Shown: positions 42,191-59,770 of the stretch, piece by piece
How positions within the stretch are numbered: the stretch's first letter is position 1
How the letters are laid out: every line of letters starts with the position of its first letter
Assembly: GCA_903822185.1 (NCBI GenBank)
Contig: CAIJOA010000011.1
Coordinates: forward strand, 434,001 to 498,000
DNA: 64,000 nucleotides
Direction: 5' to 3'
DNA from: an uncultured Rhodospirillales bacterium
Lineage (GTDB): Bacteria > Pseudomonadota > Alphaproteobacteria > ATCC43930 > CGMCC-115725
The notes under the pieces: generated by a model
The model's input: only the letters and a program-made list of their open reading frames with translations
Database searches by the model: none
Told to the model about the DNA's origin: nothing
Position numbers and translations under genes: made by a program

Positions 42191-42667
42191 CTAAAGTGCA
42201 AAAAGATCCGGCCCGCGCGTGTGCATCAGTATAACCCCGAGATCCCAAGGCGACACGCGCGGCAGTGAGAGAATCTCTTCCAGGGTAAAAAGGCGCATGT
42301 CGGCGCCTTCGTGCTGCACCATGCTTGCGATATCGGCGGGCACCACCGGCACCGTAAAATAGTGGCGCCGCACGATCCGGCGCTGCGCACGCGGCAAGAT
42401 GAAGGCGGACTCCATGTACCAGCAGCATTCCCGCGTCAGGTAGTCGAGTTCTTCGGTGAGTTCGCGGCGAAGCGCCGCTTCGGGTGCTTCTCCGATCTCG
42501 ATCTGGCCGCCAAAGACGACCCAATGATCGCGTAACGGGAGGCCCGGCTTGTCGTCGCGGAGCTGCAACAGATATCGCCCGTCGGGCACAAAGATCAGCG
42601 CACCGACACTATCGACTTCAAACGCCGTCCGAACATCCAGGGAGATCGGCGGGAAAATTTCGCTCAG
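42191..42667 (-). CDS. NUDIX hydrolase, start probably a CTG
   Basis: The NUDIX box is present as GGQIEIGEAPEAALRRELTEE, with the usual final Gly replaced by Asp. The first canonical start is a GTG at 42589, but this cuts off the first beta strand (VGALIFVPDGRYLLQLRD), which NUDIX folds need. Upstream the frame is open to 42698 and contains no ATG, GTG or TTG. A CTG at 42667 overlaps the stop of the aminotransferase as CTGA, giving about 158 residues starting SEIFPPISLDV after Met. NUDIX enzymes hydrolyse nucleotide-sugars or nucleotides; the operon suggests the first. Confidence 0.75.
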   Translation of the reverse strand: MSEIFPPISLDVRTAFEVDSVGALIFVPDGRYLLQLRDDKPGLPLRDHWVVFGGQIEIGEAPEAALRRELTEELDYLTRECCWYMESAFILPRAQRRIVRRHYFTVPVVPADIASMVQHEGADMRLFTLEEILSLPRVSPWDLGVILMHTRGPDLFAL

Positions 42668-43791
42668 TGGGTATTCTTGCGTCGCGAAGCAAGAAAGTCA
42701 TTTGTCGCAACCGCAACCGCCTCGACATCCCCTTCGTTCAGCCAGGGATGGATAGGCAAGGTCAGGATGCGTTCAGCCTGGCGCTCGCAAATCGGGAAAT
42801 CGCCCCGCTTGTAGCCCAGCGGCGCAGCCGCCGGCTGCAGATGGATCGGGATCGGATAATGGATCGCCGTACCGATGCCCTTTTCCGCCAGATGTGCTTG
42901 CAAGGCGTCACGATGATCGACCTGCACGACGAAGGTGTGATAGGCGATGAATTCGTTCGGCTGTTCGGGCGGGCAGAAAACCAATTCCGGATCGAGCAGC
43001 TTCGTATAGAGCGCGGCGTTCTTGCGTCGCCGTTCGACGATGCCATCGAGCCGTGCAAAACGATATTGAAGGATCGCAGCCTGCAGCGTGTCCATCCGCG
43101 ACACCGTACCGAACCGGACCACCGTATTGCGGTCGGCGAGGCCATGATTGCGCAGCAGACGAATCGTTTGCGCCATAGCGTCGTCATTGGTGAGGACAAA
43201 GCCGCCGTCGCCGGAGGCATTGAGATTCTTCAAGGGATGCGCGGAGAAGCAGCCGATCTCGCCGAACGTACCCGCGAACTGTCCCTGATATTTCGCGCCG
43301 ATTGCCTGAGCGGCGTCTTCGATCACCATCAGATCATGACGCTTGGCGATCGCCATGATCGCCCCCATGTCCGCCGTGCGCCCGGTCAGATGGACCGGCA
43401 TAATCGCCTTCGTGCGCGGTGTGATCACAGCTTCGACTTTGGCCGGATCGATATTTTGGTCGGGGAGAACATCGGCAAAAACCGGCCGCGCCCCGACATC
43501 GACAATCACCGCCGTCGAGGCAACGAACGAGTTGGGCGGCGTGATCACTTCGTCGCCCGGGCCGATGCCCATCGCGATCAGACCAAGGCGAAGCGCATCC
43601 GTCCCGGAGTTAAGCGTCACAGCGTGCTTCATGCCGTGATGCTTGGCCAATGAATGTTCGAGTTCTTCGATGTCGCGGCCACCGACAGCCTGCGCTTCTG
43701 TCATCACCCGATCGAAGATGGCGCGCAGATCATCCTGTTCTTCACGATACTGCGCACTGAGATCGACATAGGCGACGCGCCGTTCAGCCAC
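42664..43791 (-). CDS. DegT/DnrJ/EryC1/StrS family sugar aminotransferase (A)
   Basis: This 375-residue PLP enzyme has the DegT fold: YVDLSAQYREEQDDL at the start, HAVTLNSGTDALRLGLIA, VIEDAAQAIGA and FSAHPLKNLNASGDGG with the PLP lysine K188. Such enzymes transaminate keto-sugar nucleotides. It overlaps the second aminotransferase gene by 8 bp, so both are coupled. Sequence differs clearly from that neighbour, so the two may act at different positions of a sugar. Confidence 0.95.
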   Translation of the reverse strand: MAERRVAYVDLSAQYREEQDDLRAIFDRVMTEAQAVGGRDIEELEHSLAKHHGMKHAVTLNSGTDALRLGLIAMGIGPGDEVITPPNSFVASTAVIVDVGARPVFADVLPDQNIDPAKVEAVITPRTKAIMPVHLTGRTADMGAIMAIAKRHDLMVIEDAAQAIGAKYQGQFAGTFGEIGCFSAHPLKNLNASGDGGFVLTNDDAMAQTIRLLRNHGLADRNTVVRFGTVSRMDTLQAAILQYRFARLDGIVERRRKNAALYTKLLDPELVFCPPEQPNEFIAYHTFVVQVDHRDALQAHLAEKGIGTAIHYPIPIHLQPAAAPLGYKRGDFPICERQAERILTLPIHPWLNEGDVEAVAVATNDFLASRRKNTH

Positions 43792-44884
43792 GGTAGAACT
43801 CCGCGACCGTATCGACGACGTACTGCATTTCTTCCGGCGATAGATGCTGATCGCAGGGGAAGGTGATGATGTTGGTTGTATGCGCGTCGCTGACCGGGAA
43901 GTCGCCTTCCCTCAGTCCCAGATGCGCCAACGCCGGCTGGCGATAGATCGGCACCGGATAATGCACCTTCGCCTCGATGCCGCGATCGACGCAGAATTTC
44001 AGCAATTCGTCACGCCGTTCGGCAAAAACGATATAGAGATGATAGACGCAGCGCATATCGGACGGACGCGGCGGAATCCGGATCTGCTGCAGCTTGCTCA
44101 GATGATCGTCATAGAATTTCGCATTGGCGATGCGTTGATCGGAAATCTGTTTCGTCTTCGGGATGATCCAGTTACCGACGACGGCCTGGATCGTATCGAG
44201 ACGCGAATTATGGCCCATCAGCACGACGGTATCGCGATCGGCAAGACCGTGATTGCGCAGCAGGCGAAGCTTGTCCGCCAGGGCATCGTCGTCGGTGACA
44301 ATGACGCCACCGTCGGACCAGACATTGAGATTCTTCAGCGGATGCAGCGAAAAGCCGCCCGCATTGCCCCAAGTGCCGGCATTACGCCCGTCGAGCGCGC
44401 CAAGAATCGATTGGCACGCATCCTCGACCACGACAAGGTTGTGCTTCTTGGCGATCGGCATCAGCTTACGCATGTCGGTCATGTAGCCGGTGAAATGAAC
44501 CGGCATCAGCGCCTTGGTCTTCGGCGTAATCGCAGCTTCGAGCTTCGATACATCCATGCAGAAAGTATCGTCGCAATCGACGAAGACCGGCTTCGCACCG
44601 ACCGCGCAAATCGCACCGACCGTCGCGACAAACGTATTCGCCGCGGTAATGACCTCATCGCCTGGGCCGACGCCCAGCGCTTCGAGCGACAGCTTCAGTG
44701 AATCCGTTCCCGAATTCACACCGATGGCATGTTTCGTCCCGATAAGTTCGGCAAAGCGTCCTTCGAATTCCGTCAGCGGTTTGCCGAGGGTGAAGTCGCC
44801 CGTCGGGACGAACTCGCGCAGCTTTTGCCAGAGATCTTCGCAATCGTCGAATTGCTGCTTCAGGTAGGAATAACGAACCTTCAT
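43784..44884 (-). CDS. DegT/DnrJ/EryC1/StrS family sugar aminotransferase (B)
   Basis: The 366-residue paralogue has YLKQQFDDCEDLWQKL, HAIGVNSGTDSLKLSLEALG, VVVEDACQSILG and FSLHPLKNLNVWSDGG, with K184 as the PLP lysine. It is homologous to the downstream aminotransferase but far from identical. It begins 24 bp after the E1 beta gene. Two aminotransferases in one operon suggest a diamino sugar or two successive sugars, which is inference. Confidence 0.95.
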   Translation of the reverse strand: MKVRYSYLKQQFDDCEDLWQKLREFVPTGDFTLGKPLTEFEGRFAELIGTKHAIGVNSGTDSLKLSLEALGVGPGDEVITAANTFVATVGAICAVGAKPVFVDCDDTFCMDVSKLEAAITPKTKALMPVHFTGYMTDMRKLMPIAKKHNLVVVEDACQSILGALDGRNAGTWGNAGGFSLHPLKNLNVWSDGGVIVTDDDALADKLRLLRNHGLADRDTVVLMGHNSRLDTIQAVVGNWIIPKTKQISDQRIANAKFYDDHLSKLQQIRIPPRPSDMRCVYHLYIVFAERRDELLKFCVDRGIEAKVHYPVPIYRQPALAHLGLREGDFPVSDAHTTNIITFPCDQHLSPEEMQYVVDTVAEFYRG

Positions 44885-44908: not shown

Positions 44909-45991
44909 TTAGAACGGCCCTTTGAAGGCCGGATCGGGCTTATCGATGGGAACGCCCTGACGCACAGCGAGCACTTCCGTACAGGCCTTGTCCACCGCAT
45001 CAGGAGAGAGGCCGCAAAGGCGGCCGATATGCTTCACGATATCCGTCGAATCCGGATAATAGACTTCGGCAAGCGGCAGGCTGGACGGCGTCGGATGATC
45101 CGGCAACCCGACCCGCGCCGGGGGCAATTTCAAAGCATCGAACGCCTGCTCGACGACGTTGGCGACGATTTCGGCTCCGATTCCGAATTGCTTCCAGCCG
45201 GTGTCGCAGACAACGAGCCGTCCGGTCTTGCGGATTGAAGCGAGGATCGGCGTCATATCGAGCGGCCGCAGCACGCGCAGATCGATCACCTCGATCGAGC
45301 AGCCGACATGCTCCAGCGCGGTCGCCGCACGCAAGGCTTCGAGCACCATGTAGGAACTGGCGACGACAGTCGCGCGATCACCCGATTTGACGACCTTCGG
45401 GCCGTCGAGCGGCGACAGATAAGGACCTTCCGGCACATGGCCGTTGACGTAATGCAGCCAGCGATGTTCCAGCACCATCACCGGATTATCATCCGCGATG
45501 GCCGCGTGCATCATGCCTTTGAACTCGTAAGGCGTCGAAGGCATTACGACTTTGAGGCCCGGGATATAGGCGAACAGCGTCTCGAGGCTTTGCGAATGCT
45601 GCGGCCCCTGCCCCCAGCCGCGCCCGATGATCATGCGCACGGTCAAGGGAACGCGATGCTTGCCGCCGGTGACGTAATGGCTCTTGGCTGCCGTGTTGAA
45701 CAATTGCTCGAGGCAAAGCAGCGCAAAATCGACGCGTTGATGCGTCATGATCGGCCGCTGCCCCATCAAGGCCGAGCCGATGGCGATACCGGTCAGACCA
45801 TTTTCGGCAACCGGCATCTCGACCACGCGATCGGGACCGAATTCTTCGATGAGACCTTTGGTCGTGCCGAAGATTCCGCCGGGATCGGCAACGCCTTCAC
45901 CCATGAGATAGGTTTCAGGGCGATCGCGCAGTGCCTCGCCCAAAGCCTCGCGAATGGCCTGGGCCGCCGTGATGATCCGTTCAGAGGGCAT
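44909..45991 (-). CDS. Thiamine-diphosphate-dependent dehydrogenase E1, beta subunit
   Basis: With the ATG at 45991 the protein has 360 residues. It has the transketolase-like pyrimidine domain and C-terminal domain of 2-oxoacid dehydrogenase E1 beta: ITAAQAIREALGEALRD, PVAENGLTGIAIGSALMG, MIIGRGWGQGPQHSQSLE and VIDLRVLRPLDMTPILASI. It overlaps the alpha gene by 11 bp. In normal complexes E1 hands the acyl group to an E2; no E2 or E3 gene is present here, so the enzyme may do carboligation or decarboxylation on a sugar or 2-oxoacid instead. Confidence 0.93.
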   Translation of the reverse strand: MPSERIITAAQAIREALGEALRDRPETYLMGEGVADPGGIFGTTKGLIEEFGPDRVVEMPVAENGLTGIAIGSALMGQRPIMTHQRVDFALLCLEQLFNTAAKSHYVTGGKHRVPLTVRMIIGRGWGQGPQHSQSLETLFAYIPGLKVVMPSTPYEFKGMMHAAIADDNPVMVLEHRWLHYVNGHVPEGPYLSPLDGPKVVKSGDRATVVASSYMVLEALRAATALEHVGCSIEVIDLRVLRPLDMTPILASIRKTGRLVVCDTGWKQFGIGAEIVANVVEQAFDALKLPPARVGLPDHPTPSSLPLAEVYYPDSTDIVKHIGRLCGLSPDAVDKACTEVLAVRQGVPIDKPDPAFKGPF

Positions 45992-46988
45992 AGAGATTAT
46001 CGGCAGCTGTGGCGATTGAAGGGAACGGCGCGGCTTCGGCAAAGGCAAAAGCTTCCGTGATTTCTGCGGTGATCTCGTTGGCCATAGCTTGCCGCTCGGC
46101 CGCGTCGAGCGCGCCTTTGCCTTCGAGCCGCAGGATCAAACTCTCGATCGGATCGCGGCCCTTCCAGTCTTCGAATTCCGCGACCGTGCGATAGCCGAGC
46201 GTATTATCGAAGTTAGGGCCGCAATGCTCGCGCCAGCGATACGTGTCCGCCAGCATGAAGCACGCGCCGGCGCCGCTGCGGGCATGCGCGACCAATTCCG
46301 TCGCGGCACGATAGACGCCGAGCGCATCGTTGCCATCGACCTCGACCGTATGCAAGCCGTGCGCCCGTCCCAGTTCGCTGATCGGCCGATCCGGCTGACG
46401 ATCGCGAAGCGGGGTATAGACCGAATAAAGATTATTCTCGCAGACGAAGATCGCCGGCAGCTTGCGCACCGCCGCGAAATTCGCGCTTTCGTGAAAGACG
46501 CCTTCCTCGACAGAGGCATCGCCGAGATAAATCACCGCGACATTGTCTTCGCCGCGCTGCTTCATTGCCATCGCCGCGCCGACCCCGACCGGAATTGAAG
46601 CCGCGACAATAGGAAGGCTCAGCAGCATGCCGGCGTCGCGATCGAACAGGTGCATCGAGCCGCCGCGCCCGGCGCAGCAACCCGCCTCGCGCCCCATCAT
46701 CTCGGCCAGCATGGCTTTCAGGTCGCCGCCCTTCGCCAGATAATGTGCGTGGCAACGATGGGTCGAGACCACCTGATCGGTCTTGCGCAAGGCCGCGGAA
46801 ATGCCGGCAGGAACGGCTTCCTGGCCAATCGACAGATGCACAGGGCAGCGCATCTTTTCTTCGCCATAGCGCGCAGCGATCTCTTCCTCGATCATGCGGA
46901 TACGCACCATCTCGCGATAGAGACTGACGCCGAGAACCGGATCGAAGGCTGCTTCGTCGCGGCTATGTGTCGTGGTTGTGTTCATCAA
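45981..46988 (-). CDS. Thiamine-diphosphate-dependent dehydrogenase E1, alpha subunit
   Basis: The 335-residue protein has HLSIGQEAVPAGISAALR, STHRCHAHYLAKGGDL and GRGGSMHLFDRD, followed by the cofactor motif GDASVEEG (G156, D157) ending in ENN (N185, N186). The usual GDG is GDA. Together with the beta subunit it would make an alpha2-beta2 E1 enzyme. It starts 10 bp after the SIS gene. The operon partners (sugar isomerase, kinase/nucleotidyltransferase, aminotransferases) suggest sugar chemistry, not central metabolism. Confidence 0.93.
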   Translation of the reverse strand: MMNTTTTHSRDEAAFDPVLGVSLYREMVRIRMIEEEIAARYGEEKMRCPVHLSIGQEAVPAGISAALRKTDQVVSTHRCHAHYLAKGGDLKAMLAEMMGREAGCCAGRGGSMHLFDRDAGMLLSLPIVAASIPVGVGAAMAMKQRGEDNVAVIYLGDASVEEGVFHESANFAAVRKLPAIFVCENNLYSVYTPLRDRQPDRPISELGRAHGLHTVEVDGNDALGVYRAATELVAHARSGAGACFMLADTYRWREHCGPNFDNTLGYRTVAEFEDWKGRDPIESLILRLEGKGALDAAERQAMANEITAEITEAFAFAEAAPFPSIATAADNLYAL

Positions 46989-46998
46989 AGACCGCCGA

Positions 46999-47610
46999 TC
47001 ACGAGGGCATCATCGCGGCGACCGGAAGATCGCCGGCGCGGCGCCATCCCATCGACATGTCGAGAACCGCGTGGCAAATCGCCAGATGCCCGATTTCGAC
47101 AAAACCGTAATGGCCATCCGGCAGCCAGAAATTGAGATCGCCCGTCTTGCGCAGCGGGTTCTCGGGTTTGAACCCCGACAAGGTAATCACATCGACGCCG
47201 ACACGACGCGCCACCGTAACGGCATTGAGGATGCTCGCCGAATTACCCGAACTCGATATCGCAAAAAGCAGATCGCCGGCACGCGCATGACGCTCAAGCT
47301 GCGCCGAGAAGACCTGATCGTAACCGAGATCGTTCGCGAGGCAGGTCAGAGTCGCGCCGTCATTGAAGCAGGTGGCAGAGAACCCGCCATTCTTGAGCCA
47401 ATCCGTCGCCATATGACTGGCAATGCCCGCGGAGCCGCCATTGCCAATGAACATGACGCGCGTACCGCGGGTTTTCGTCGCCAGAGCAAGCGTTACCGCG
47501 CGGGCGATACCGTCCTGGAGGTCGATTTCCTTGCCCGCGGCATCGCTAGCTTGCGTTGCCGCGCCAACCTTGCCGAGATGCTGGAAATATTCGCTGATAC
47601 TGGCGTCCAC
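46999..47610 (-). CDS. SIS-domain sugar-phosphate isomerase, GmhA-like
   Basis: The 203-residue protein begins at a GTG. It has the SIS core: TRVMFIGNGGSAGIASHMATDWLKN (first loop), AISSSGNSASILNAVTVARRVGVDVITLSG, and a C-terminal HLAICHAVLDM. This is close to phosphoheptose isomerase but not identical to the second SIS protein in the window (58562-59134). It may isomerise a ketose phosphate to feed the HldE-like protein encoded just upstream (21 bp). Substrate not proven. Confidence 0.88.
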   Translation of the reverse strand: MDASISEYFQHLGKVGAATQASDAAGKEIDLQDGIARAVTLALATKTRGTRVMFIGNGGSAGIASHMATDWLKNGGFSATCFNDGATLTCLANDLGYDQVFSAQLERHARAGDLLFAISSSGNSASILNAVTVARRVGVDVITLSGFKPENPLRKTGDLNFWLPDGHYGFVEIGHLAICHAVLDMSMGWRRAGDLPVAAMMPS

Positions 47611-47631: not shown

Positions 47632-49191
47632 CTATTTTAACAAGGTCTGGATGTATTTGAGGACGCTGACTTTGTCCACAGCTTGACGATGGCCAACGAT
47701 ACCGATCTTGATCGAGCCGACCACGTTACCGATGAACCCAACCATCTCCATATCCTCGGCAACGGCGGCGAGCGGCGCCGTCACCGCCAGGAACGCATCG
47801 CCCGCACCCATCGTATCGACGATTCGGGTCGAGAACGCCGGAACACGATTCGTCCCCTGCTGCTTGTCGTAGGTAACGCACCCGTTACGGCCATGCGTCA
47901 AGATAAGACGATTGATATCCATCTTCGCATGCAGCAACTGACTCGCGACATCGGCCAGATCAGCATCCTTGTCCGCAACCGCCAGACGTGCCTCGGGCGC
48001 GTCGATGCAGATGTAATCGGCGCGCGGGTACTTATTGATCAGGTTGTAACCTTGATTGGCCGAATTGCTCTGCGCGTTGACGGCGACGAAGGGGCTATGT
48101 TCCAGCAGCGCGTGCCGGATACGGCGGGACAGCAGCCCATGCCCGAAATCGGTGACAATGACGACATCGAAATCCTTGGCGCGTTGGGCGATCTCTTCTT
48201 CGAACCGCTCCTCGAGCGCGAGCGGCAGCGGCGAATCGTCCATGACATAGACTTCGAACAGCTTGCGCATGAAATCCGATTCGACATAACGAACCTTGCG
48301 CAAGGTCGGCGCGTCGGGGCGATGTACGGCCCAAAGTTTCACGTTCGGGCGCAATGAATCGCGCACGAGCTGCTCGTGGCTATCGTGCTCGCCAAAGGAG
48401 GTAAAGATTTCGACTTCTTTGCAGAAGTTGGCGACATGATTGGCCGCCGCCACGACGCCGCCGGCAAAGACTTCACGGCCGCGATAATGTGTCGCCAGGA
48501 CGAATTCCTTCGGCGGCTTGCCCAACGGCGACACGTAATTGTACTCGTCGATGATCGTCTCACCGACCAGCAGCACGCGCAGATCGCCGATACGTTCGAG
48601 CAGTTCCGGCAGCTTCGTGAAAAACGAACGCTGACGCGCGCTATCGAGATAAGCGCGCAGCTTCGGATCGCCGACATCGATATGCTGGTTGATCAGCGAG
48701 GACGAGCTGAAGGTGATGTCGTCGGTAAAATGAATCCGGCCGCCATAGGATTCGACGGCGTCCTGTTCTTCGAGAATCTTGCCGGTGACGTCCTGCGCCG
48801 CGTCCTTGTACTCGATACCTTTTACATAGACATCCGGCTTCACCGCCTCGATCACGTTGACCGCGGTCGGTGCATTATTGACGGCGACCCCGGCAACGCA
48901 TCCAAGCGCCCCAAGCATCTCCGCCCGAAGAAGATCGGTGAAGACGGGACGCGACGGCCCTTTATTCACGAACCGGTCTGCCGTCACGGTCACAAAAAGC
49001 GTATCGCCCTGAAGCTTGGCCTCTTCGAGGTAACGCACATGCCCCAAATGCAGCAAATCGAACGCACCGTGCGCCAGCACGACGCGGCGACCAGCCGCAC
49101 GCTCGTCTTCCGCAAATGCCGCCAACTCGCTCAAAGTCTTTATCTTCGCGCGCGCGTGCGGATTTCCTGCGGCAACACCTTCTTCGACCAT
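47632..49191 (-). CDS. HldE-like bifunctional protein with swapped domains (nucleotidyltransferase then PfkB kinase)
   Basis: The start is uncertain; I use the ATG at 49191 (519 residues), though frames open from 49251 and 49290. Residues about 35-170 are a cytidylyltransferase-type domain, with AHGAFDLLHLGHVRYLEEA (HxGH at H48-H51) and FVNKGPSRPVFTDLLRAEM. Residues about 205-519 are a PfkB-family kinase with VFAGGVVAAANHVANF and IVDTMGAGDAF (GAGD at 462-465). E. coli HldE has the kinase first. It is the first gene of the minus-strand operon and should make a nucleotide-activated sugar from a sugar phosphate. Confidence 0.9.
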   Translation of the reverse strand: MVEEGVAAGNPHARAKIKTLSELAAFAEDERAAGRRVVLAHGAFDLLHLGHVRYLEEAKLQGDTLFVTVTADRFVNKGPSRPVFTDLLRAEMLGALGCVAGVAVNNAPTAVNVIEAVKPDVYVKGIEYKDAAQDVTGKILEEQDAVESYGGRIHFTDDITFSSSSLINQHIDVGDPKLRAYLDSARQRSFFTKLPELLERIGDLRVLLVGETIIDEYNYVSPLGKPPKEFVLATHYRGREVFAGGVVAAANHVANFCKEVEIFTSFGEHDSHEQLVRDSLRPNVKLWAVHRPDAPTLRKVRYVESDFMRKLFEVYVMDDSPLPLALEERFEEEIAQRAKDFDVVIVTDFGHGLLSRRIRHALLEHSPFVAVNAQSNSANQGYNLINKYPRADYICIDAPEARLAVADKDADLADVASQLLHAKMDINRLILTHGRNGCVTYDKQQGTNRVPAFSTRIVDTMGAGDAFLAVTAPLAAVAEDMEMVGFIGNVVGSIKIGIVGHRQAVDKVSVLKYIQTLLK

Positions 49192-49393
49192 CGACCGTCC
49201 ATCATCGTAGCGGGCATCCGGAGAGCGCCTCTTTCGGTCGCGCCCGTCCATATCGGATAATGGGACCAATCTACCTGCCTTGCCGATCACATGCCAACCC
49301 GGTAAGGCTGATCACAATGATGACGCGTACGGACGCCGCTCTTCCTGGGCAAATTCTGATCGACATTGCTCCGATCCCGCGTCGCCGCTTCCG

Positions 49394-49915
49394 ATGAGCA
49401 GCGTCTTCCTCGCCGCCGGCCTTTTCTTCTTCGCGTTCGCCTTCCACGTCGCGCTTTGGCGAGTCGCGCGGCCACGGGCCACCGGCCAGGTCCTGATTCT
49501 CCTACTGGTGGCATGCATCTGCGGTGGCGCGTGTCTGCTCGCCGCATGCGAGGCGTTCTTGCCCGAATTGACGACCTTACTGCCGCCGAGATTGAGCGAT
49601 TGGGTACAGGCCGTCGTCACGGCGCTCGCCGTTGCTTGCGTCTATGTGATGAATTATCCCGCCGTCGAGGTCGAGAGTCCGACGTTGGTGATGATCGATC
49701 TGGTCGCAAAAGCGGAACCCAACGGGTTGACGCGCGACGATCTCTATCAAGCCATTGGTGATGATTTTCTCGTGATGCCCCGCATCGTGGATCTCTTGGA
49801 CGAGCGCCTTGCGATCGAGGCGGAAGGCCAATGCCGGCTGACCGCCAAAGGCATTCGCCTCGCACGGATATTCACCGGTTGGCGGCACCTGCTGCGCGCC
49901 GGCATTGGGGGATGA
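49394..49915 (+). CDS. Three-helix membrane protein with C-terminal winged-helix-like domain (copy 1)
   Basis: The 173-residue protein has membrane helices at about residues 3-20, 31-52 and 70-88. The soluble part (about 95-165) reads LTRDDLYQAIGDDFLVMPRI, then VDLLDERLAIEAEGQCRLTAKG, which has the helix-helix-wing shape of wHTH proteins. The next gene encodes a smaller protein with the same plan. Neither is recognised as a named family. It starts just after the divergent HldE-like gene and near the gmd-fcl genes, so a regulatory or polymer-export role could be imagined, but nothing in sequence proves it. Confidence 0.75.
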   Translation: MSSVFLAAGLFFFAFAFHVALWRVARPRATGQVLILLLVACICGGACLLAACEAFLPELTTLLPPRLSDWVQAVVTALAVACVYVMNYPAVEVESPTLVMIDLVAKAEPNGLTRDDLYQAIGDDFLVMPRIVDLLDERLAIEAEGQCRLTAKGIRLARIFTGWRHLLRAGIGG

Positions 49916-49919
49916 AATC

Positions 49920-50408
49920 ATGAACGGTTTTGCCTGGCTGCTGGTAACAGCCGGCGCGTCCGCCGCCAACATGATCTGCCACGTCTTGTGGTTTCGCGCT
50001 TTCCCGGCCGGCGGGATGTTTCGGGCGATGCTGGCTGGACTGATCGGCGGATCGATCGCCCTCGTCATCCTATCCGCGGTTTTTATCGACCAATCGGCTT
50101 GGTGGCATTTGCTCAACCTCGTCATCTATGGCTGCTTCAGCAATGCCTATTTCCACTGGAACAACATGGGGGAAACCGCACGGCGCGTTAGGCTGATGAT
50201 CGAACTGCTGGCCGCGCCCACGGGGCTCACCCGGGCCGAACTTATTAACCGTTACGGTAGCCGTGAAATCATCGATCGCCGGATCGGCCGCATGCTGGAA
50301 TCCCGTCAAATTCGGGAAGTCGGCTCTCGTCTTCGACTCGGCAATGCCTCATTTTTGGCCATGGCCCGGATCGTCGGATTGTTTAAGCGTTTGCTGGGCA
50401 CCGCTTAA
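49920..50408 (+). CDS. Three-helix membrane protein with C-terminal winged-helix-like domain (copy 2)
   Basis: The 162-residue protein starts 4 bp after its neighbour at the ATG at 49920. Its helices are at about 4-22, 32-52 and 60-78, and its C-terminal part has LTRAELINRYGSREIIDRRI and GRMLESRQIREVG, matching the neighbour in order and spacing. The first helices share 'HV-W-R' text. The pair is therefore a diverged tandem duplication. No known function. Both have short cytoplasmic wHTH-like parts without signal-receiver domains. Confidence 0.75.
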   Translation: MNGFAWLLVTAGASAANMICHVLWFRAFPAGGMFRAMLAGLIGGSIALVILSAVFIDQSAWWHLLNLVIYGCFSNAYFHWNNMGETARRVRLMIELLAAPTGLTRAELINRYGSREIIDRRIGRMLESRQIREVGSRLRLGNASFLAMARIVGLFKRLLGTA

Positions 50409-50514: not shown

Positions 50515-51573
50515 ATGACGAAGACGGCACTGATCACCGGGGTGACGGGACAGGACGGGTCGTATCTGTCGGAGTTTTTACTGGCGAAGGGCTACGCGGT
50601 GCACGGGATGGTGCGGCGGGCGAGCCTCTTCAACACGGACCGGATCGATCACCTGTACCATGACCCGCATGTGACCGGCGCGAACCTGTCGCTGCATTAC
50701 GGCGACCTGACCGACGGCACGGGCCTGCGGCGGGTGATCGAGGCGGTGCAGCCGGACGAGGTCTATAACCTCGGCGCGCAGAGCCATGTGAAGGTCTCGT
50801 TCGACGCCCCGGAATACACCGGCGACGTCGTCGGGCTGGGCACGCTGCGGCTTCTCGAAACCCTGCGCGACCATGTCGCCCATGGCGGCAAAAAGGTGCG
50901 CTTCTACCAGGCCGGCTCGTCCGAGATGTACGGCGCCGCCCCGGCGCCGCAGAGCGAGAAGACGCCGTTTTATCCGCGCAGCCCCTACGCCGTCAGCAAG
51001 GTCGCGGCGCATTGGTACGCGATCAACTATCGCGAGGCCTATGGCCTCTTCATCTGCAACGGCATCCTCTTCAATCATGAGAGTCCGCGCCGTGGCGAGA
51101 CCTTCGTCACCCGCAAGGTGACCCGCGCCGTCGGCCGCATCAAAGAGGGGCTGCAGGAGAAACTGTTTCTCGGCAACCTCGATTCCAAGCGCGACTGGGG
51201 CTTTGCCGGCGATTATGTCGAGGCGATGTGGGCGATGCTGCAGCAGGATCAGCCGGACGATTACGTCATCGCCACCGGTAAATCCTATTCCGTGCGCGAG
51301 ATGGTCGAGGTTGCCTTCGCCGAGGTCGGGCTCGACTGGCAAAAATACGTCGCCTTCGACGAGCGCTATCTGCGCCCGACCGAGGTCGATGTCCTGCAGG
51401 GCGATTCGACCAAGGCGCAGCAGCGGCTGAACTGGAAGCCCCGGATGGGCTTCAAGGAACTGGTCGCCAAGATGGTTGCGCACGACCTCGACCTTGCCCG
51501 CCAGGAGAAGACCCTGCAGCAAGCCGGGTTCAAGACACCCGCCCGCGGCGCTGCCGCCTCCAACCAGGCCTAA
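50515..51573 (+). CDS. gmd: GDP-mannose 4,6-dehydratase
   Basis: The 352-residue enzyme is a textbook Gmd: [23 protein letters not shown] (NADP motif), [27 protein letters not shown], and the catalytic YAVSK (Y158, K162). It converts GDP-mannose to GDP-4-keto-6-deoxymannose. AGGAA seven bases upstream is a good RBS. The gmd-fcl pair uses GC-ending codons more heavily than its flanks, as judged by eye, which suggests separate origin. The next gene fcl follows at 4 bp. Confidence 0.98.
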
Positions 51574-51577
51574 ATCG

Positions 51578-52534
51578 GTGCTTCCCGTCGTCTTCCCGCT
51601 CGCCGGGCAACGCGTCTATGTCGCGGGCCATCGCGGCATGGTCGGCGGGGCGCTGGTGCGGCGGCTGGAACAGACCGGCTGCACCATCCTGACCTCGACC
51701 CATGCCGAGCTCGACCTGACCCGTCAGGCCGAGACCGAGGCCTGGATGGCGGCGAAGAAGCCCGACGCGGTGTTCGTCGCCGCCGCGACGGTCGGCGGCA
51801 TCCTCGCCAACGACACCCGCCCGGGCGAGTTCCTCTACGACAACATGATGATCGAGGCGAACCTGATCGAGGCCGCCCGCCGGGTCGGGGTGAAGAAGCT
51901 TTTGTTCCTCGGCTCGTCCTGCATCTATCCGCGGCTCGCACCGCAGCCGATGACCGAGGAGGCACTGCTCACCGGCGCGCTCGAGCCGACCAACCAATGG
52001 TACGCCATCGCCAAGATCGCCGGCCTCAAGCTCTGCGCCGCCTACCGGCGACAATATGGCTGTGACTTCATCTCGGCGCAGCCGACCAATCTCTACGGCC
52101 CCGGCGACACCTACGACCTTCAGGCCAGCCACGTCATCCCGGCGCTGATCGCCAAGATGGACCGGGCAAAAACCACCAACGCCGCCGAGGTCGAGATCTG
52201 GGGCACCGGCACGCCCAAGCGCGAGTTCCTCCATGTCGATGACCTGGCCGACGCGCTGGTCTTCCTGATGGAGCGCTATTCCGAGGAATCCCACGTCAAT
52301 GTGGGCTGGGGCGAGGATCTGACCATCGCCGAGGTCGCGGCCACCATCGCCGACGTCGTCGGCTTCAAGGGCGCCCTACGCTACGCCACCGAAAAGCCCG
52401 ACGGCGCCCCGCAAAAGCTTCTCGATACCGCCAAGCTTCAAGGCCTAGGGTGGAAACCGAACATCCGACTCCGCCAAGGACTCGCCGACGCTTACCGCTG
52501 GTTCAAAGAGAATCAAGCAGAACCAAATACTTAG
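51578..52534 (+). CDS. fcl: GDP-L-fucose synthase
   Basis: A GTG start at 51578 gives 318 residues. The NADP motif VYVAGHRGMVGGALVRRLE, PDAVFVAAATVGGI, FLGSSCIYP and the catalytic YAIAKIAGLKLC are complete. The enzyme epimerises and reduces GDP-4-keto-6-deoxymannose to GDP-L-fucose in the cytoplasm. A much earlier ATG lies inside gmd. Same base composition as gmd, so they probably moved together. Confidence 0.97.
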   Translation: MLPVVFPLAGQRVYVAGHRGMVGGALVRRLEQTGCTILTSTHAELDLTRQAETEAWMAAKKPDAVFVAAATVGGILANDTRPGEFLYDNMMIEANLIEAARRVGVKKLLFLGSSCIYPRLAPQPMTEEALLTGALEPTNQWYAIAKIAGLKLCAAYRRQYGCDFISAQPTNLYGPGDTYDLQASHVIPALIAKMDRAKTTNAAEVEIWGTGTPKREFLHVDDLADALVFLMERYSEESHVNVGWGEDLTIAEVAATIADVVGFKGALRYATEKPDGAPQKLLDTAKLQGLGWKPNIRLRQGLADAYRWFKENQAEPNT

Positions 52535-53384: not shown

Positions 53385-54389
53385 ATGTCTTCATTCAAGC
53401 ACGTTCTCGTAACGGGCGGCGCCGGTTATGTTGGTCATGTTTTGGTCCCGCAGCTTTTGGCGAACGACTACGCCGTCACCGTCTATGACACGCTGTGGTT
53501 CGGCACGAACTTCGCGCCGCATCCGCGTCTGAAGATCGTTAAAGGCGACATTCGCGACACGAAGACGCTGGCCGAAGCCGTCAAAGGCTGCGATGCGGTC
53601 ATCCATCTCGCCTGCATCTCGAACGACACGTCCTTCGCGCTCGATGAAAAGCTCAGCACCTCGATCAATCGCGATGCTTTCACGCCGATGCTGAAAGTAT
53701 TCCGTGACGCGGGCATCAAACGGCTGATCAATGCCTCGACCAGCTCGGTCTATGGCGTTTCCGATTCGCCCGAAGTTTATGAAGATAATCCGAAGGTCCC
53801 GCTGACGCTCTACAACCGCTTCAAGTGGGAATGCGAAGAGCAGTTGATGGCTTTCAACGATCCGGGCTTCGTCTGGGTCACGATCCGACCGGCGACCGTT
53901 TGCGGTTACTCGCCGCGCTGCCGGCTGGATCTGTCGGTCAACATCCTGACCAATTTCGCCGTCAACAAAGGCAAGATCACCGTCTTCGGCGGCACCCAAA
54001 AGCGCCCCAACCTCCATATCCTAGACATGGTCAACGCCTACAAGATGCTGCTGGCCCTGCCCGACGAGAAGATCGACCGCAAGACGTTCAATTGCGGCTT
54101 CCAGAATCTGTCGATCATGGAAATCGCGCAGCTTGCCAAGCGCGTCGTCGAAGAACAGATTCCGGAAAAGGGCACGATCGATATCGAAGTGACATCTTCG
54201 GACGATCTGCGCAGCTATCAGATCAATTCCGACAAAATCCGCCGCGAACTCGGCTTCGCGCCGCAATTCACGATCGAAGACGCCGTGCGCGACATGGTCA
54301 AAGCCTTCCAACAAGGCCTGCTGCCGCGTTCGTTCGATGATTCGAACTATTTCAACGTGAAGAAGCTGCAAGAACTGAAAGTGTCCTGA
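53385..54389 (+). CDS. NAD-dependent nucleotide-sugar epimerase/dehydratase (SDR A)
   Basis: The 334-residue extended SDR has VTGGAGYVGHVLVPQLLAND at its start and the catalytic YNRFK (YxxxK). NASTSSVYG carries the active-site serine. The core has IRPATVCGYSPRCRLDLSVN, found in epimerase subgroups acting on dTDP, UDP or GDP sugars. Start 24 bp after the GT2 gene, and 7 bp ahead of a second SDR gene. The substrate is unknown; the heptose epimerase HldD is one candidate but its diagnostic signature is not seen. Confidence 0.9.
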   Translation: MSSFKHVLVTGGAGYVGHVLVPQLLANDYAVTVYDTLWFGTNFAPHPRLKIVKGDIRDTKTLAEAVKGCDAVIHLACISNDTSFALDEKLSTSINRDAFTPMLKVFRDAGIKRLINASTSSVYGVSDSPEVYEDNPKVPLTLYNRFKWECEEQLMAFNDPGFVWVTIRPATVCGYSPRCRLDLSVNILTNFAVNKGKITVFGGTQKRPNLHILDMVNAYKMLLALPDEKIDRKTFNCGFQNLSIMEIAQLAKRVVEEQIPEKGTIDIEVTSSDDLRSYQINSDKIRRELGFAPQFTIEDAVRDMVKAFQQGLLPRSFDDSNYFNVKKLQELKVS

Positions 54390-54396
54390 GGCCGAT

Positions 54397-55395
54397 ATGG
54401 CGACGCCCCGCATCGCGCTTATCACCGGCGGCGCCGGCTTCATCGGCAGCCATACGGTCGATCTCTGCCTTTCCAAAGATATGCAGGTGCGAGTTATCGA
54501 CAATCTGTTCGGCGGCAGGCTCGCCAATTTGGCTCATCACGACAAAGACAGCCGCCTGACGGTCGAGCAGCGCGATATCCGTTCGTACCAGCCGGAAGAT
54601 CCGATCTTCAAAGACGTGACGCATGTCTTTCATTTCGGCGGCATCGGCGATCTTGTCCCGTCGATCGAGCAGCCGCTCGAATATATGTCGGTCAACACGC
54701 AAGGCACGATCCATATGCTGGAAGGCGCGCGTCATGCGGGCGCGTCGCTGCAAAAGTTCGTCTATGCCGCGTCATCGTCTTGCTATGGCCTCGCGGACGT
54801 GCCGACGAAGGAAGATCATCCGATCCGGCCCGAGCATCCTTACGGGCTGAGCAAAAATCTCGGCGAGCAAGCCTGCTTTCATTGGCACAAGGTTTATAAG
54901 ATGCCGGTCAATACGATCCGCATCTTCAACGCCTATGGCACGCGCTCGCGGACATCAGGTGCCTATGGCGCGGTCTTCGGCGTTTTCTTGAAGCAGAAGC
55001 TTGCCGGCAAGCCCTTTACCGTCGTCGGCGACGGCACCCAGAAGCGCGATTTCCTCTACGTGACCGATGTCGCGAAGGCATTCTTGGCCGCCGGCGAGAC
55101 CTCGATCTCGGGCCGGAGCTGGAATGTCGGCGCGGGCGATCCGCAATCGGTCAATCGGCTGGTCGAACTCCTCGGCGGCCCCGTGGTGAACATCCCGAAA
55201 CGCCCGGGCGAACCGGATTGTACCTGGGCCGATATCACCCGCATCACGACCGAGTTGGGCTGGAAGCCGGAAGTCAGTTTCGAGGAAGGCGTCGCCAAGG
55301 TCGTCGCGAATATCGACTATTGGCGCGATGCACCGCTCTGGGATCCCGCTTCGATCGCCAAATCGACCAAGACCTGGTTCGACTATCTAAGCTAG
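54397..55395 (+). CDS. NAD-dependent nucleotide-sugar epimerase/dehydratase (SDR B)
   Basis: The 332-residue enzyme has ALITGGAGFIGSHTVDLCLSK, AASSSCYGLADVP and the catalytic YGLSK (YxxxK), then VGDGTQKRDFLYVTDVAKAF. It looks like the UDP-glucose 4-epimerase or GDP-sugar epimerase class. Four distinct sugar SDRs lie between 50.5 and 55.4 kb (gmd, fcl and these two), so at least two different sugars are made here. Confidence 0.9.
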   Translation: MATPRIALITGGAGFIGSHTVDLCLSKDMQVRVIDNLFGGRLANLAHHDKDSRLTVEQRDIRSYQPEDPIFKDVTHVFHFGGIGDLVPSIEQPLEYMSVNTQGTIHMLEGARHAGASLQKFVYAASSSCYGLADVPTKEDHPIRPEHPYGLSKNLGEQACFHWHKVYKMPVNTIRIFNAYGTRSRTSGAYGAVFGVFLKQKLAGKPFTVVGDGTQKRDFLYVTDVAKAFLAAGETSISGRSWNVGAGDPQSVNRLVELLGGPVVNIPKRPGEPDCTWADITRITTELGWKPEVSFEEGVAKVVANIDYWRDAPLWDPASIAKSTKTWFDYLS

Positions 55396-55475: not shown

Positions 55476-55793
55476 TTGACGACCGTCCTCGATTACGAAG
55501 CGCTCACGGCCGATTTCAACGACAAGCTGATGACGCAGCTTCGCGGTCATGGCGCCGACAACGAATATCTAGAAACATGGGTTCCGGACGAAGACCCGGT
55601 CAAAAGCATCCTCAACATGGTCGAGGCGGCGCAGTCTTCCGGCCTGGAAGCAATGGATATCCATTTTGCCGCCGCGACGATGACCAAGACCCAACGCGCC
55701 GCCTTGCTCGACGAAGTCTCTCAGATCGCCGAGGCGACGATGACGGCGCGTGATGAGGTCTATGTCCTGACCGTCATCGGCGTGAAGGGCTGA
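55476..55793 (+). CDS. Unknown 105-residue protein, first of a coupled unit with a radical SAM gene
   Basis: The start is a TTG at 55476 with a weak RBS. The protein has no cysteine and no membrane segment. It has a helix near the start, then LETWVPDEDPVKSILNMVEAA and a strand YVLTVIGVKG at the end. No family recognised. Four bases separate it from the next gene. It could be a partner protein or assembly factor of the radical SAM enzyme, but nothing in sequence shows this. Confidence 0.62.
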   Translation: MTTVLDYEALTADFNDKLMTQLRGHGADNEYLETWVPDEDPVKSILNMVEAAQSSGLEAMDIHFAAATMTKTQRAALLDEVSQIAEATMTARDEVYVLTVIGVKG

Positions 55794-55797
55794 CCCG

Positions 55798-56571
55798 GTG
55801 GCCGGTACATCTTCCCTACTCCACCCCGCCTTCACCGAGGCCGCAAACCAGGCCGCGGCAAAATTGCAGCGGCGGGACGCGCTTGTTGCGCCTGAGGGCG
55901 GCGACACCCACATAGCCCGAATGGATGGCGTTTCCCTGCGTGTGACGTTGGCGAAGCCGCAGAACCGCTGGATCGTGACCGAGGCGCGTCATGCCGGCGC
56001 TACGGCGCCGCTTTCCGGCGTTCTCGACGTGTTTTGCCAGGAAATCGAAAATCTGCCGCTTCAGGAAGCGGCCGACCATGGCGCCATCCATGCCCTCGAG
56101 CGGTTGCGCGGCGACGCGCTGGCCCGGCCCGTGGCGGGCATCCTGACCACCCGCAGCGCCGGTACGGCTTTCACGACCTGTGAAACCCTCATTCGCGACG
56201 TTGCCGCCCAGCACGCAACCGAGACCGGGGAGCAGGACACGGCGAATTTCTGGAATCCGTCACTGTCGGCAGCCTGGCGGGCGAAATCCGACGCGGAACG
56301 TATATCCACGCTGCAAGCCGTCGCCTCCCCTTTCGCGACGGCTCAGGGCCTCGCCGCCACCGACCTGCGGATTTCCGCCATTGAGAAGACCCGCCGTGTT
56401 ATCGTCGAGTTCGGACCGGCAGTCAGCTACGCCGACAAGCCTGTGCTTTTGATGCATCTCGAAATGGATATCCGCCGCGCCACGGGCGATCGGCTGGAAT
56501 TGTTCATGGCTGAAGCCCAGGACAACAACACCATCAGACGGCTTACGCCGGGTGAGGAAGAAGCAAAATGA
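55798..56571 (+). CDS. Unknown 257-residue protein coupled to a radical SAM gene
   Basis: A GTG start gives 257 residues. Residues about 60-110 read LAKPQNRWIVTEARHAGATAP, then LDVFCQEIENLPLQEAADHG and AIHALERLRG, while residues 120-140 (ILTTRSAGTAFTTCETLI) hold two of its few cysteines. Soluble, no signal peptide. The overlap with the radical SAM start (ATGA at 56568-56571) means they are co-translated. I do not recognise the family. A role as a scaffold or substrate-binding partner is possible. Confidence 0.65.
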   Translation: MAGTSSLLHPAFTEAANQAAAKLQRRDALVAPEGGDTHIARMDGVSLRVTLAKPQNRWIVTEARHAGATAPLSGVLDVFCQEIENLPLQEAADHGAIHALERLRGDALARPVAGILTTRSAGTAFTTCETLIRDVAAQHATETGEQDTANFWNPSLSAAWRAKSDAERISTLQAVASPFATAQGLAATDLRISAIEKTRRVIVEFGPAVSYADKPVLLMHLEMDIRRATGDRLELFMAEAQDNNTIRRLTPGEEEAK

Positions 56572-57713
56572 CCGGCATGACCGACCATACCGACCTGATC
56601 CTCGGCAAGCAGAAGCTCAATCTCGACGGCACCAAGATCGCCTGGCATCAGGAACGCATTGCCGCCTGGGAACGTGGCGAGCGCATCGCCCCGATCACCA
56701 TCGACATGGCCCTGACCCGCGCCTGCAATTACGGCTGCCACTATTGCTATGCGATGCTGCAGGAAAACGACCGCAAGACGATCAACCGTCAGGTGATTTT
56801 CGACTTCCTCGACGACTGCGCCAAGATGGGCGTCCAAGGCATCTCGTTCGTTTCGGACGGCGAAAGCACGATCTCACCCGTCTTCGTCGATGCCGTGAAG
56901 CACGGCCATTCGCTGGGCCTGTCGATGGCCGTCGGCACCAACGCTTTCGTCTTCAACCGCCGCAAGCTGGAAGAACTGCTGCCCGCCCTTACCTATCTGC
57001 GCGTCAATATTTCGGCCGGCGAGCGCGACCGCTATGCCGAGATCATGGGCGTGAAGCCGCATTGGTTCGACCGCGTCGTTCAGAACATCCGCGACATGGC
57101 CGACATCAAGAAGAAGAACAATCTCGACTGCACCATCGGCCTGCAGATGGTGCTCATGCCGGAATACGAAGACCAGATCATGCCGCTGGCGCAGCTCGGC
57201 AAGGAGTTGCGTCCCGATTACCTGGTGATCAAGCATTGCTCGGATAACGAGGATGGCGATCTGGGCGTCGATTACACGAAATATGCCGGCCTCTACGACA
57301 AGCTCCACGCCGCGGAAGCGCTGTCGGACAGCGAATACAGCGTCCAGGTCAAATGGTCGAAGATCGAAGCGAACGGCACGCGCTCATATCAGCGTTGCTA
57401 TGGCGCGCCCTTCATGATCCAGATCTCGGGCTCGGGCCTCGTCGCACCTTGCGGCATGTTGTTCAACGAGCAGTATAAGAAATTCCACATCGGCAACATC
57501 TGCGACACACGCTTCTATGACATGTGGAATTCGGATCGTTATTGGGAGGTGATGAACTACATCGCCGGGCCTCAGTTCAACGCCCAGACGATGTGCGGTT
57601 CATTGTGCCTCCAGCACAAGGTCAACGAATTCCTCGATGGCTATGTGAAGGGTCAGGTCGACCTGCCCGATCTCGGCGGGCGCGCCCCGCCGATGCATCT
57701 GAGCTTCGTCTAG
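56568..57713 (+). CDS. Radical SAM protein with a SPASM-like C-terminus
   Basis: The 381-residue enzyme has the iron-sulfur motif CNYGCHYC (C53, C57, C60) after ITIDMALTRA. The C-terminal part adds more cysteines in a SPASM-like order: RCYGAPFMIQISGSGLVAPCG near residue 285, then NICDTRFYDMWNSDRYW and MCGSLCLQHKVNEFLDG. Such enzymes carry one or two extra clusters and act in peptide or sugar modification. An ATG three codons downstream is an alternative start. The sugar-cluster location points to sugar epimerisation, dehydration or a lipid step; no precursor peptide with Cys or Ser repeats was found nearby. Confidence 0.9.
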   Translation: MTGMTDHTDLILGKQKLNLDGTKIAWHQERIAAWERGERIAPITIDMALTRACNYGCHYCYAMLQENDRKTINRQVIFDFLDDCAKMGVQGISFVSDGESTISPVFVDAVKHGHSLGLSMAVGTNAFVFNRRKLEELLPALTYLRVNISAGERDRYAEIMGVKPHWFDRVVQNIRDMADIKKKNNLDCTIGLQMVLMPEYEDQIMPLAQLGKELRPDYLVIKHCSDNEDGDLGVDYTKYAGLYDKLHAAEALSDSEYSVQVKWSKIEANGTRSYQRCYGAPFMIQISGSGLVAPCGMLFNEQYKKFHIGNICDTRFYDMWNSDRYWEVMNYIAGPQFNAQTMCGSLCLQHKVNEFLDGYVKGQVDLPDLGGRAPPMHLSFV

Positions 57714-58561: not shown

Positions 58562-59134
58562 TTAACGCTGCGCGATCCGCGCTTCCACTTCGGCGCATAG
58601 ATAATGATAGATGCAGACATGCGCCTGCTGGATCAGGGGCGTCTCGCTCGACGGCGCGGCGAGCAGCACATCGACCATCGCAGCAAGATGGCCACCGCCC
58701 TTGCCGGTCATCGCAATCGTTGCCATGCCTTTGCTTTTCGCCACTTCGACGGCGGCAATCACGTTCTTCGACCGGCCGCTGGTGCTGATCGCCAAGAGCA
58801 CGCCGCCTTTTTCGCCATAAGCATGCACTTGGCGGGCGAACACATCCTCATAGCCGAAATCGTTGCCCCAGGCCGTGAGGATCGCCGAATCCGCCGTGAG
58901 CGCAATCGCCTTGAGCGCCCGCCGATCCTTCAGGAAACGTCCCACCAGCTCGCCGGCGATGTGCATGGCGTCGCTGGCCGAGCCGCCATTGCCGCAAATC
59001 AGCAGCGGCTTGTCGGCGGCAAGCGCTTCGAAAATGACATCCGCCGCTTTTTCGACATGCGCGACGTCGGCGCCCCGTTCCATCTCCGACAGAACCGCCG
59101 CCGATGACTTCAGATAATCCCGAAAATCGCCCAT
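58562..59134 (-). CDS. gmhA: Phosphoheptose isomerase
   Basis: The 190-residue protein is a good match to GmhA: LLICGNGGSASDAMHIAGELVGRFLKDR, SAILTAWGNDFGYEDVFARQV, AISTSGRSKNVIAAVEVA, and a C-terminal HVCIYHYLCAEVE. It isomerises sedoheptulose 7-phosphate to glycero-manno-heptose 7-phosphate, the first step of heptose activation. GmhB is divergent from it across a short promoter region. The final step also needs an HldE-type protein; the swapped-domain protein at 47632-49191 is the visible candidate. Confidence 0.93.
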   Translation of the reverse strand: MGDFRDYLKSSAAVLSEMERGADVAHVEKAADVIFEALAADKPLLICGNGGSASDAMHIAGELVGRFLKDRRALKAIALTADSAILTAWGNDFGYEDVFARQVHAYGEKGGVLLAISTSGRSKNVIAAVEVAKSKGMATIAMTGKGGGHLAAMVDVLLAAPSSETPLIQQAHVCIYHYLCAEVEARIAQR

Positions 59135-59152
59135 ATTTCCTGCTTCTCTGGA

Positions 59153-59170
59153 AGCGGCAATATTGCCGCT
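59153..59170. promoter_or_regulatory. Perfect 18-bp palindrome between divergent gmhA and gmhB
   Basis: AGCGGCAATATTGCCGCT reads the same on both strands and lies 18 bp upstream of the gmhA start and 54 bp upstream of gmhB. Its place between two divergent genes of the same pathway and its perfect symmetry fit a dimeric repressor operator. No U-tract follows, so it is less like a terminator. Confidence 0.5.
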
Positions 59171-59224
59171 CCCGGCTATGATTGTCTACGTTGCGTCCTG
59201 CTTTATCCAAGATAGGTAACGACC

Positions 59225-59770
59225 ATGCCCAATCGGGCTCTTTTCATCGATCGAGACGGCGTCCTTAACGAGAATTATGTTCGCGATGGCAAACCCTACG
59301 CGCCGCGTAGCTTTGCTGAATTCAAGCTCATGCCGGGCATCGGTGAGGCCGCACGGCGTGCCAAAGCAGCGGGCTTTTTGCTGATCCTCGTCAGCAACCA
59401 ACCCGACATCGCCGACGGCTTCACCCCGCGCGCGGAGTTCGATGCGATGCAGGCGCTTTTGACAAAAACGATTCCGTTCGACGATCTGAAGATTTGCTTT
59501 CACACCAAGAACGACAACTGCGACTGCCGCAAGCCCAAACCGGGTATGTTGCTGGAAGCGGCGGCGGACCACGATATCGACTTGAAAACGAGCTACTTCG
59601 TCGGTGACCGCTGGCGCGACATTCTTGCCGGGCAAGCCGCGGGCGTCTTCACGATCCTCGTCGATACTGGTCTCGCGCAGGACGAACCGATCACGCCGGA
59701 AAAGACCGTGCATTCCCTTCCCGAAGCCGTCAATTTCATCCTGGCGCGGGAAGGTAAAAACACGGGCTGA
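59225..59770 (+). CDS. gmhB: D-glycero-manno-heptose 1,7-bisphosphate 7-phosphatase (HAD family)
   Basis: The 181-residue protein has HAD motif I as FIDRDGVLNEN (D9, D11), LVSNQPDIADG (motif II), and a zinc-loop CFHTKNDNCDCRKPKPGM, followed by YFVGDRWRDILAG. This is the GmhB/histidinol phosphatase class. With gmhA and the HldE-like gene it completes a heptose route. It is convergent with the next membrane protein, with 2 bp between stops. Confidence 0.92.
   Translation: MPNRALFIDRDGVLNENYVRDGKPYAPRSFAEFKLMPGIGEAARRAKAAGFLLILVSNQPDIADGFTPRAEFDAMQALLTKTIPFDDLKICFHTKNDNCDCRKPKPGMLLEAAADHDIDLKTSYFVGDRWRDILAGQAAGVFTILVDTGLAQDEPITPEKTVHSLPEAVNFILAREGKNTG

Follow-up and report, generated by a model that had tools for sequence, protein, structure and literature searches.

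The radical SAM enzyme (rSAM) encoded within a sugar locus in the window, the whole stretch of 64,000 nucleotides that was analysed, is accompanied by what is probably a dedicated partner protein, P12, whose two parts (P1 and P2) are encoded directly upstream of it. The favoured reading, given a probability of about 0.5, is that P12 forms a complex with this enzyme, which has a single twitch-type domain, and that the enzyme's substrate is a nucleotide-activated amino sugar. Hardly any radical SAM enzyme is known to have a dedicated partner derived from an Fe-S scaffold, and the loss of the cluster ligands from such a scaffold raises the question of what an IscU fold does in the absence of a cluster. 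What is unusual is the cysteine-less partner of scaffold type and the breadth of the sugar cassette around it. No description of the cassette, the partner or the glycan was found in the literature searched, outside which most subscription papers lie; the one related finding was the NfuA/NFU1 precedent discussed below.

Gene organization

P1, P2 and rSAM are real, contiguous genes, and their layout matches the initial annotation of this DNA, which had described proteins of 105 and 257 residues followed by a radical SAM enzyme. A gap of 4 bases separates P1 from P2, and P2 overlaps rSAM by ATGA.

55476..55793, forward strand: P1, TTG start, 105 aa; the N-terminal domain of P12, encoded in the window by a gene of its own
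55798..56571, forward strand: P2, GTG start, 257 aa; C-terminal part of P12
56568..57713, forward strand: radical SAM enzyme (rSAM), 381 aa; one predicted BtrN-type (twitch) auxiliary-cluster domain; cysteines C53/C57/C60, C277, C295, C343 and C347

In Pfam, rSAM matches Radical_SAM (1.1e-15, 58.6 bits against a cut-off of 29.5) and SPASM (7e-6, 26.7 bits against 21.5), P1 has no match and P2 has only one, below threshold. A KCTD_C match of P2 (0.0046, below cut-off) and a KasA match of P1 (0.024, NCBIfam) were each seen in a single family member and were set aside as chance.

Distribution and co-occurrence

Among 99 genomes of close relatives rSAM is mostly missing, and the only clear ortholog besides that of the window is a fragment at a contig end in a member of the same family (G004). 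A class-wide search yielded a tight ortholog group (64-78% identity), and a scan of 84,980 species genomes yielded 77 rSAM loci at 58-82% identity. Their records are labelled Pseudomonadota, Myxococcota, Bdellovibrionota, Elusimicrobiota, Verrucomicrobiota, Acidobacteriota, Nitrospinota and others. P12 and rSAM are found together again in bacteria placed in about a dozen phyla, with the proviso that many of the 77 loci come from MAGs and that single odd phylum labels may reflect contamination. Isolates (Nisaea, Azospirillum, Herbaspirillum) and single-cell genomes are also represented, and a search of phages with rSAM gave no match.

P12 and rSAM co-occur exactly, in an identical set of six of the 386 class genomes; the seventh match of the P12 profile in this set is weak (6e-4) and belongs to an ordinary, cysteine-bearing scaffold of IscU type (L287). 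Near rSAM, P1 and P2 are both found in 64 of the 77 loci, P2 alone in 5 and neither in 8, some of these eight being short contigs. Locus L118 is coded as lacking P12 in the fusion-state tree described below, but its genome (G412) does carry P12, 27 kb from rSAM; L128-L130 may truly lack it. L128 also holds a 27% relative of rSAM beside the main type. In at least 46 loci P2 or P12 is the gene immediately upstream of rSAM and has the same orientation, over-long ORF calls hiding a few more. In six others it is inverted, mostly still close to rSAM; where it has moved or inverted, it mostly remains nearby. A few ORFs of the related loci (L066 for instance) were read too long or in the wrong frame, and no conclusion depends on them.

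The arrangement of P1, P2 and rSAM is not a matter of chance, since relatives of P12 stand beside rSAM in most of the 77 loci and in many phyla, and since the two share the same six class genomes. By neighbourhood count the trio recurs widely. The functional complex that had been proposed from the close coupling of the genes holds as a conserved functional unit, given this recurrence, the exact co-occurrence and the fusion and fission of P1 and P2; a physical complex is likely.

P1 and P2 as parts of one protein

P1 and P2 occupy one ORF in about 38-43 of the 77 loci (two counts) and are split in about 20. In the rSAM tree the window falls within a supported clade made up almost entirely of loci with split P1/P2 genes (SH-aLRT 97), and the state has switched between fusion and fission about 8 times. 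Instead of being two unrelated proteins, P1 and P2 belong together as parts of a single protein family, and that they have fused and separated so often indicates that they function jointly. Median identity to the window is 37% for P1, 30% for P2 and 72.5% for rSAM, so P12 evolves much faster than the enzyme. In P1, R23, W35 and V36 are invariant and P37 and D38 strongly conserved, and in P2 the residues H94, G114, W160, E222 and D242 are conserved, with W160 invariant and H94, E222 and D242 invariant or nearly so. The last of these lies in a conserved tail.

56518..56544, forward strand: C-terminal tail of P2; family consensus KDxNxIRRL with D242 invariant; QDNNTIRRL in the window

That polar and aromatic residues (R23, W35, W160, E222, D242) are invariant across all domains of an otherwise fast-evolving protein would suit a catalytic or substrate-binding subunit, which presents the sugar or an acceptor to rSAM or performs a step of its own. 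This role is considered unlikely for P12, which has no known catalytic motif and whose conserved residues and tail could equally form an interface with the well-conserved rSAM.

The initial annotation had also raised the possibility that P1 is a RiPP-like precursor modified by rSAM. In favour of this, its small ORF adjoins an enzyme of SPASM type, and the maturases SkfB and SuiB are structural neighbours of rSAM. P1, however, is predicted to fold as a domain, has an invariant R..WVPD core, is usually fused to P2, shows no pattern of leader and variable core, and lies in a setting of nucleotide-sugar biosynthesis, which together make a precursor role highly improbable. A TusA-like reading of P1, prompted by the order of its helices and strands, gained no support from profile comparison (hhalign 0.9, not above controls).

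The predicted IscU-like fold of P2

The structure predicted for a fused relative (L072; pLDDT 88, pTM 0.65) divides the P2 part into two domains.

55816..56223, forward strand: IscU/NifU-N-like domain of P2; approximate limits, about residues 7-142
About residues 158-244 of P2, forward strand: Nfu/RbfA-like alpha/beta domain by structural resemblance, following the IscU-like domain

Residues 122-257 of this model match IscU (Foldseek E 1.3e-4) and superpose on ISCU1 (5wlw_H) with a VIA Z of 12.5 and an rmsd of 3.4 over 117 residues. All six PDB profile matches of P2 are to IscU, NifU or SufU (best E 0.014), and comparison of the P2 profile with nine IscU sequences gave a Prob of 66.5 (E 5e-5), against at most 1.9 for seven unrelated control families and at most 0.6 for TusA and Nfu, the controls having E values of 0.026 or worse. 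One P12 member (L092) matched NifU_proper at 1.8e-6, and the P12 profile in turn picked up the genuine scaffold L287 mentioned above. Pfam NifU_N is matched by only 3 of 41 P12 members (best E 0.0016), and the curated cut-off is not reached (L092, 18.4 bits against 22). At the IscU ligand positions no cysteine is conserved among 58 sequences, all three ligand cysteines being gone, and the sole common cysteine (42/58) sits in a helix. By its modelled fold P2 is a degenerate Fe-S scaffold of NifU/IscU type that has lost its cluster ligands. The earlier statement that P1 and P2 belong to no recognised family stands insofar as profile searches assign neither to a housekeeping family, but P2 can be recognised as a scaffold that has degenerated.

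The last domain of P2 is less clear. Residues 270-356 of the model resemble NFU1 and CnfU (Z 9.1 and 8.4), with RbfA and DciA almost as close, and this suggests a Nfu-like domain at the level of structure; a sequence comparison with the Nfu profile was negative (0.4) and the CxxC motif is not conserved. P2 resembles the scaffolds NifU, IscU and SufU in an IscU fold shared over its whole length and, in structure, in the putative Nfu/RbfA-like domain that follows. Unlike them, P12 lacks ligand cysteines, carries the additional P1 domain and is confined, in the sample searched, to genomes that carry rSAM.

A precedent for docking by such a protein is provided by NfuA/NFU1, which has a degenerate A-type domain, binds tightly to lipoyl synthase and rebuilds the auxiliary cluster of that enzyme (PMC9585516). 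In that pair, as proposed for P12 and rSAM, the binding protein is related to scaffolds and has one degenerate domain, and the radical SAM enzyme that it binds carries an auxiliary cluster. The analogy is only partial because NfuA keeps a cluster-binding domain with its CxxC site, whereas P12 has no cluster site and its degenerate domain is of IscU rather than A type. By extension of this precedent, P12 could be an Fe-S maturation factor that loads or repairs the auxiliary cluster of rSAM through non-cysteine ligands or a bound client cluster. The IscU-like and Nfu/RbfA-like architecture, the strict pairing with one Fe-S enzyme and the presence of invariant or nearly invariant residues that could bind metal (H94, E222, D242) are in line with this. 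The loss of every conserved cysteine from the ligand positions and the presence of ordinary NifU_N and Nfu proteins in the same genome argue against it, and such a function is regarded as improbable. A dedicated partner that docks on rSAM is preferred.

The radical SAM enzyme

The CxxxCxxC site and further cysteines noted initially in rSAM are confirmed by the alignment. In the SAM-cluster motif C53 and C57 are invariant and C60 nearly invariant, and C277, C295, C343 and C347 are invariant in 44 rSAM sequences; C224 is nearly invariant. The four later cysteines align with those of the auxiliary cluster of BtrN, and rSAM carries, on sequence grounds, a BtrN-type four-cysteine site that is predicted to bind an auxiliary cluster. 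The model of rSAM (pLDDT 91, pTM 0.90) is closest to DesII (Z 25.1) and BlsE (24.5), followed by SkfB (23.9), SuiB and viperin-like enzymes, with epimerases such as EpeE also among its structural relatives. DesII is the best match in sequence as well (5e-10). The peptide-acting SkfB and SuiB differ from DesII and BlsE by no more than 1-2.5 Z, and the fold by itself therefore does not establish a sugar substrate. Among the best 25 of 52 NCBIfam matches no named radical SAM equivalog exceeds its curated cut-off (TIGR04317, 68 bits of 380; rSAM_desII, 34.9 of 450). rSAM is a new subgroup within a known superfamily.

DesII (8hzv) is the radical deaminase of TDP-4-amino-4,6-dideoxy-glucose and thus acts on an amino nucleotide sugar. 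It shares only 13-16% identity with rSAM, has an N-terminal domain of six helices and lacks auxiliary-cluster cysteines, whereas rSAM has four further invariant ones. Neither DesII nor BtrN is known to have a P12-like partner. A single Fe-S cluster, with no auxiliary cluster, has been described for DesII (PMC11434129). BtrN (4m7t), a radical SAM dehydrogenase, oxidises an aminocyclitol and has one auxiliary cluster ligated by four cysteines (PMC9012708). Its small amino-polyol substrate is similar to that proposed for rSAM, although BtrN acts on the free aminocyclitol, is shorter, and differs from rSAM, in which the last two cysteines are spaced CxxxC. BlsE (7vob), the cytosylglucuronate decarboxylase, likewise uses a nucleoside-sugar substrate but belongs to an antibiotic pathway, performs other chemistry and is not accompanied by such a cassette.

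An epimerase or dehydratase acting on the sugar, in place of an oxidase or deaminase, is a further and rather doubtful interpretation of rSAM. C224 follows directly after a predicted barrel strand, in what may be the position of a hydrogen donor, and epimerases are found among the structural relatives; against this, a low-potential four-cysteine auxiliary cluster goes with oxidation in BtrN.

The sugar cassette

The two sugar SDR genes that had been placed upstream of the trio do lie just upstream of P1 (53385-54389 and 54397-55395). Other cassette genes of the window are mostly 7-14 kb upstream of the trio on the opposite strand. The features are given with the number of loci that hold a relative, counted in the 37 of the 77 rSAM loci with full flanks.

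54397..55395, forward strand: SDRb, NAD-dependent sugar epimerase/dehydratase; 26/37 loci
53385..54389, forward strand: SDRa, NAD-dependent sugar epimerase/dehydratase; 32/37 loci
47632..49290, reverse strand: CTK, fusion of nucleotidyltransferase and PfkB kinase (cytidylyltransferase-kinase), with the HldE domains in the opposite order; 31/37 loci
46999..47610, reverse strand: SIS-domain sugar-phosphate isomerase (GmhA-like); cassette member
45981..46988, reverse strand: E1a, TPP-dependent E1 alpha subunit; 32/37 loci
44909..46048, reverse strand: E1b, TPP-dependent E1 beta subunit of transketolase C-terminal type; 30/37 loci
43784..44884, reverse strand: DegTB, DegT/DnrJ/EryC1 aminotransferase B, HPLKNLN lysine present; 25/37 loci
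42664..43791, reverse strand: DegTA, DegT/DnrJ/EryC1 aminotransferase A, HPLKNLN lysine present; 28/37 loci
42191..42646, reverse strand: NUDIX-like hydrolase at the end of the minus-strand run; approximate limits, matched solely via relatives near rSAM

In Azospirillum oryzae (NZ_CP054615.1) these genes form one unbroken run, SDR-SDR-kinase-SIS-SDR-E1a-E1b-DegT-DegT-P12-rSAM-NUDIX, with glycosyltransferases after it. The sugar setting is far stronger than the initial annotation could show, and the likely product of the cassette is an unusual amino sugar destined for the cell surface. The cassette is large and is kept across widely separated bacteria (SAR11, SAR116, Azospirillum and Nisaea among them), and has so far been annotated just as generic parts and "hypothetical protein" (the label of P12 in A. 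oryzae). This suggests that a surface sugar is widespread, and culturable strains now offer a way to look for its structure and chemistry. The CTK-SIS-SDRa core is present in 30 of the 386 class genomes, mostly without rSAM, and the radical step therefore looks like a module added to a sugar pathway.

Proposed mechanism

In the proposed pathway, the SIS protein would isomerise a sugar phosphate, and CTK would phosphorylate and activate it; oxidation or epimerisation by the SDRs, extension or acylation by E1 alpha/beta and amination by a DegT enzyme would follow. The 5'-deoxyadenosyl radical of rSAM would then remove a ring or side-chain hydrogen from the amino sugar, and the four-cysteine auxiliary cluster would accept the leftover electron to give a keto sugar, in a BtrN-like oxidation or possibly with DesII-like loss of ammonia. 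This product could be converted further by the second DegT or an SDR and go into a surface glycan. Two aminotransferases occur together with a DesII-related enzyme that has a BtrN-like auxiliary-cluster site, which favours a radical oxidation or deamination with a nucleotide-linked amino sugar as substrate. In desosamine biosynthesis, amination, radical deamination and a second amination take place in sequence (DesI, DesV).

P12 may have descended in part from a NifU-type Fe-S scaffold, and since the cluster ligands are lost it probably works by docking and not by carrying a cluster. Once docked, P12 may shape the active site of rSAM or gate it, or help to load and protect the auxiliary cluster of the enzyme. 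At slightly less than even odds, the stripped scaffold, joined to a new N-terminal domain, has become an obligatory subunit of rSAM, and the pathway leads to an undescribed surface sugar made in many phyla.

Neighbouring sugar genes and other radical SAM enzymes

Genes for a GDP-mannose dehydratase-like protein and a GDP-fucose synthase surround the trio in the window (50515-52534, 58562-59770), as do a second GmhA-like gene and a GmhB-like gene; they probably represent a separate sugar pathway and are rarely near the trio elsewhere. Two small proteins, apparently membrane-anchored, are encoded at 49280-49915 and 49905-50408, and relatives of about 49% identity lie beside P12 in L073 and a few other loci. 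On the A. oryzae plasmid (L279, 23349-27585), PqqD-like, lasso-peptide B2 and asparagine-synthetase-like genes are located about 7 kb downstream of the cassette.

A search for P12 beside more distant radical SAM relatives (L059, L280 and the loci around CTK) gave none. L280, on a Solidesulfovibrio plasmid (9007-10104), is a 38% relative of rSAM; its neighbours are SAM methyltransferases and a glycosyltransferase, and P12 is absent. Another radical SAM/SPASM group, with 22-26% identity to rSAM, is present in genomes with the CTK-SIS-SDRa core (L262 on G085:C97, G146, G226 and G314), and at L262 its member lies about 6 kb from that core.
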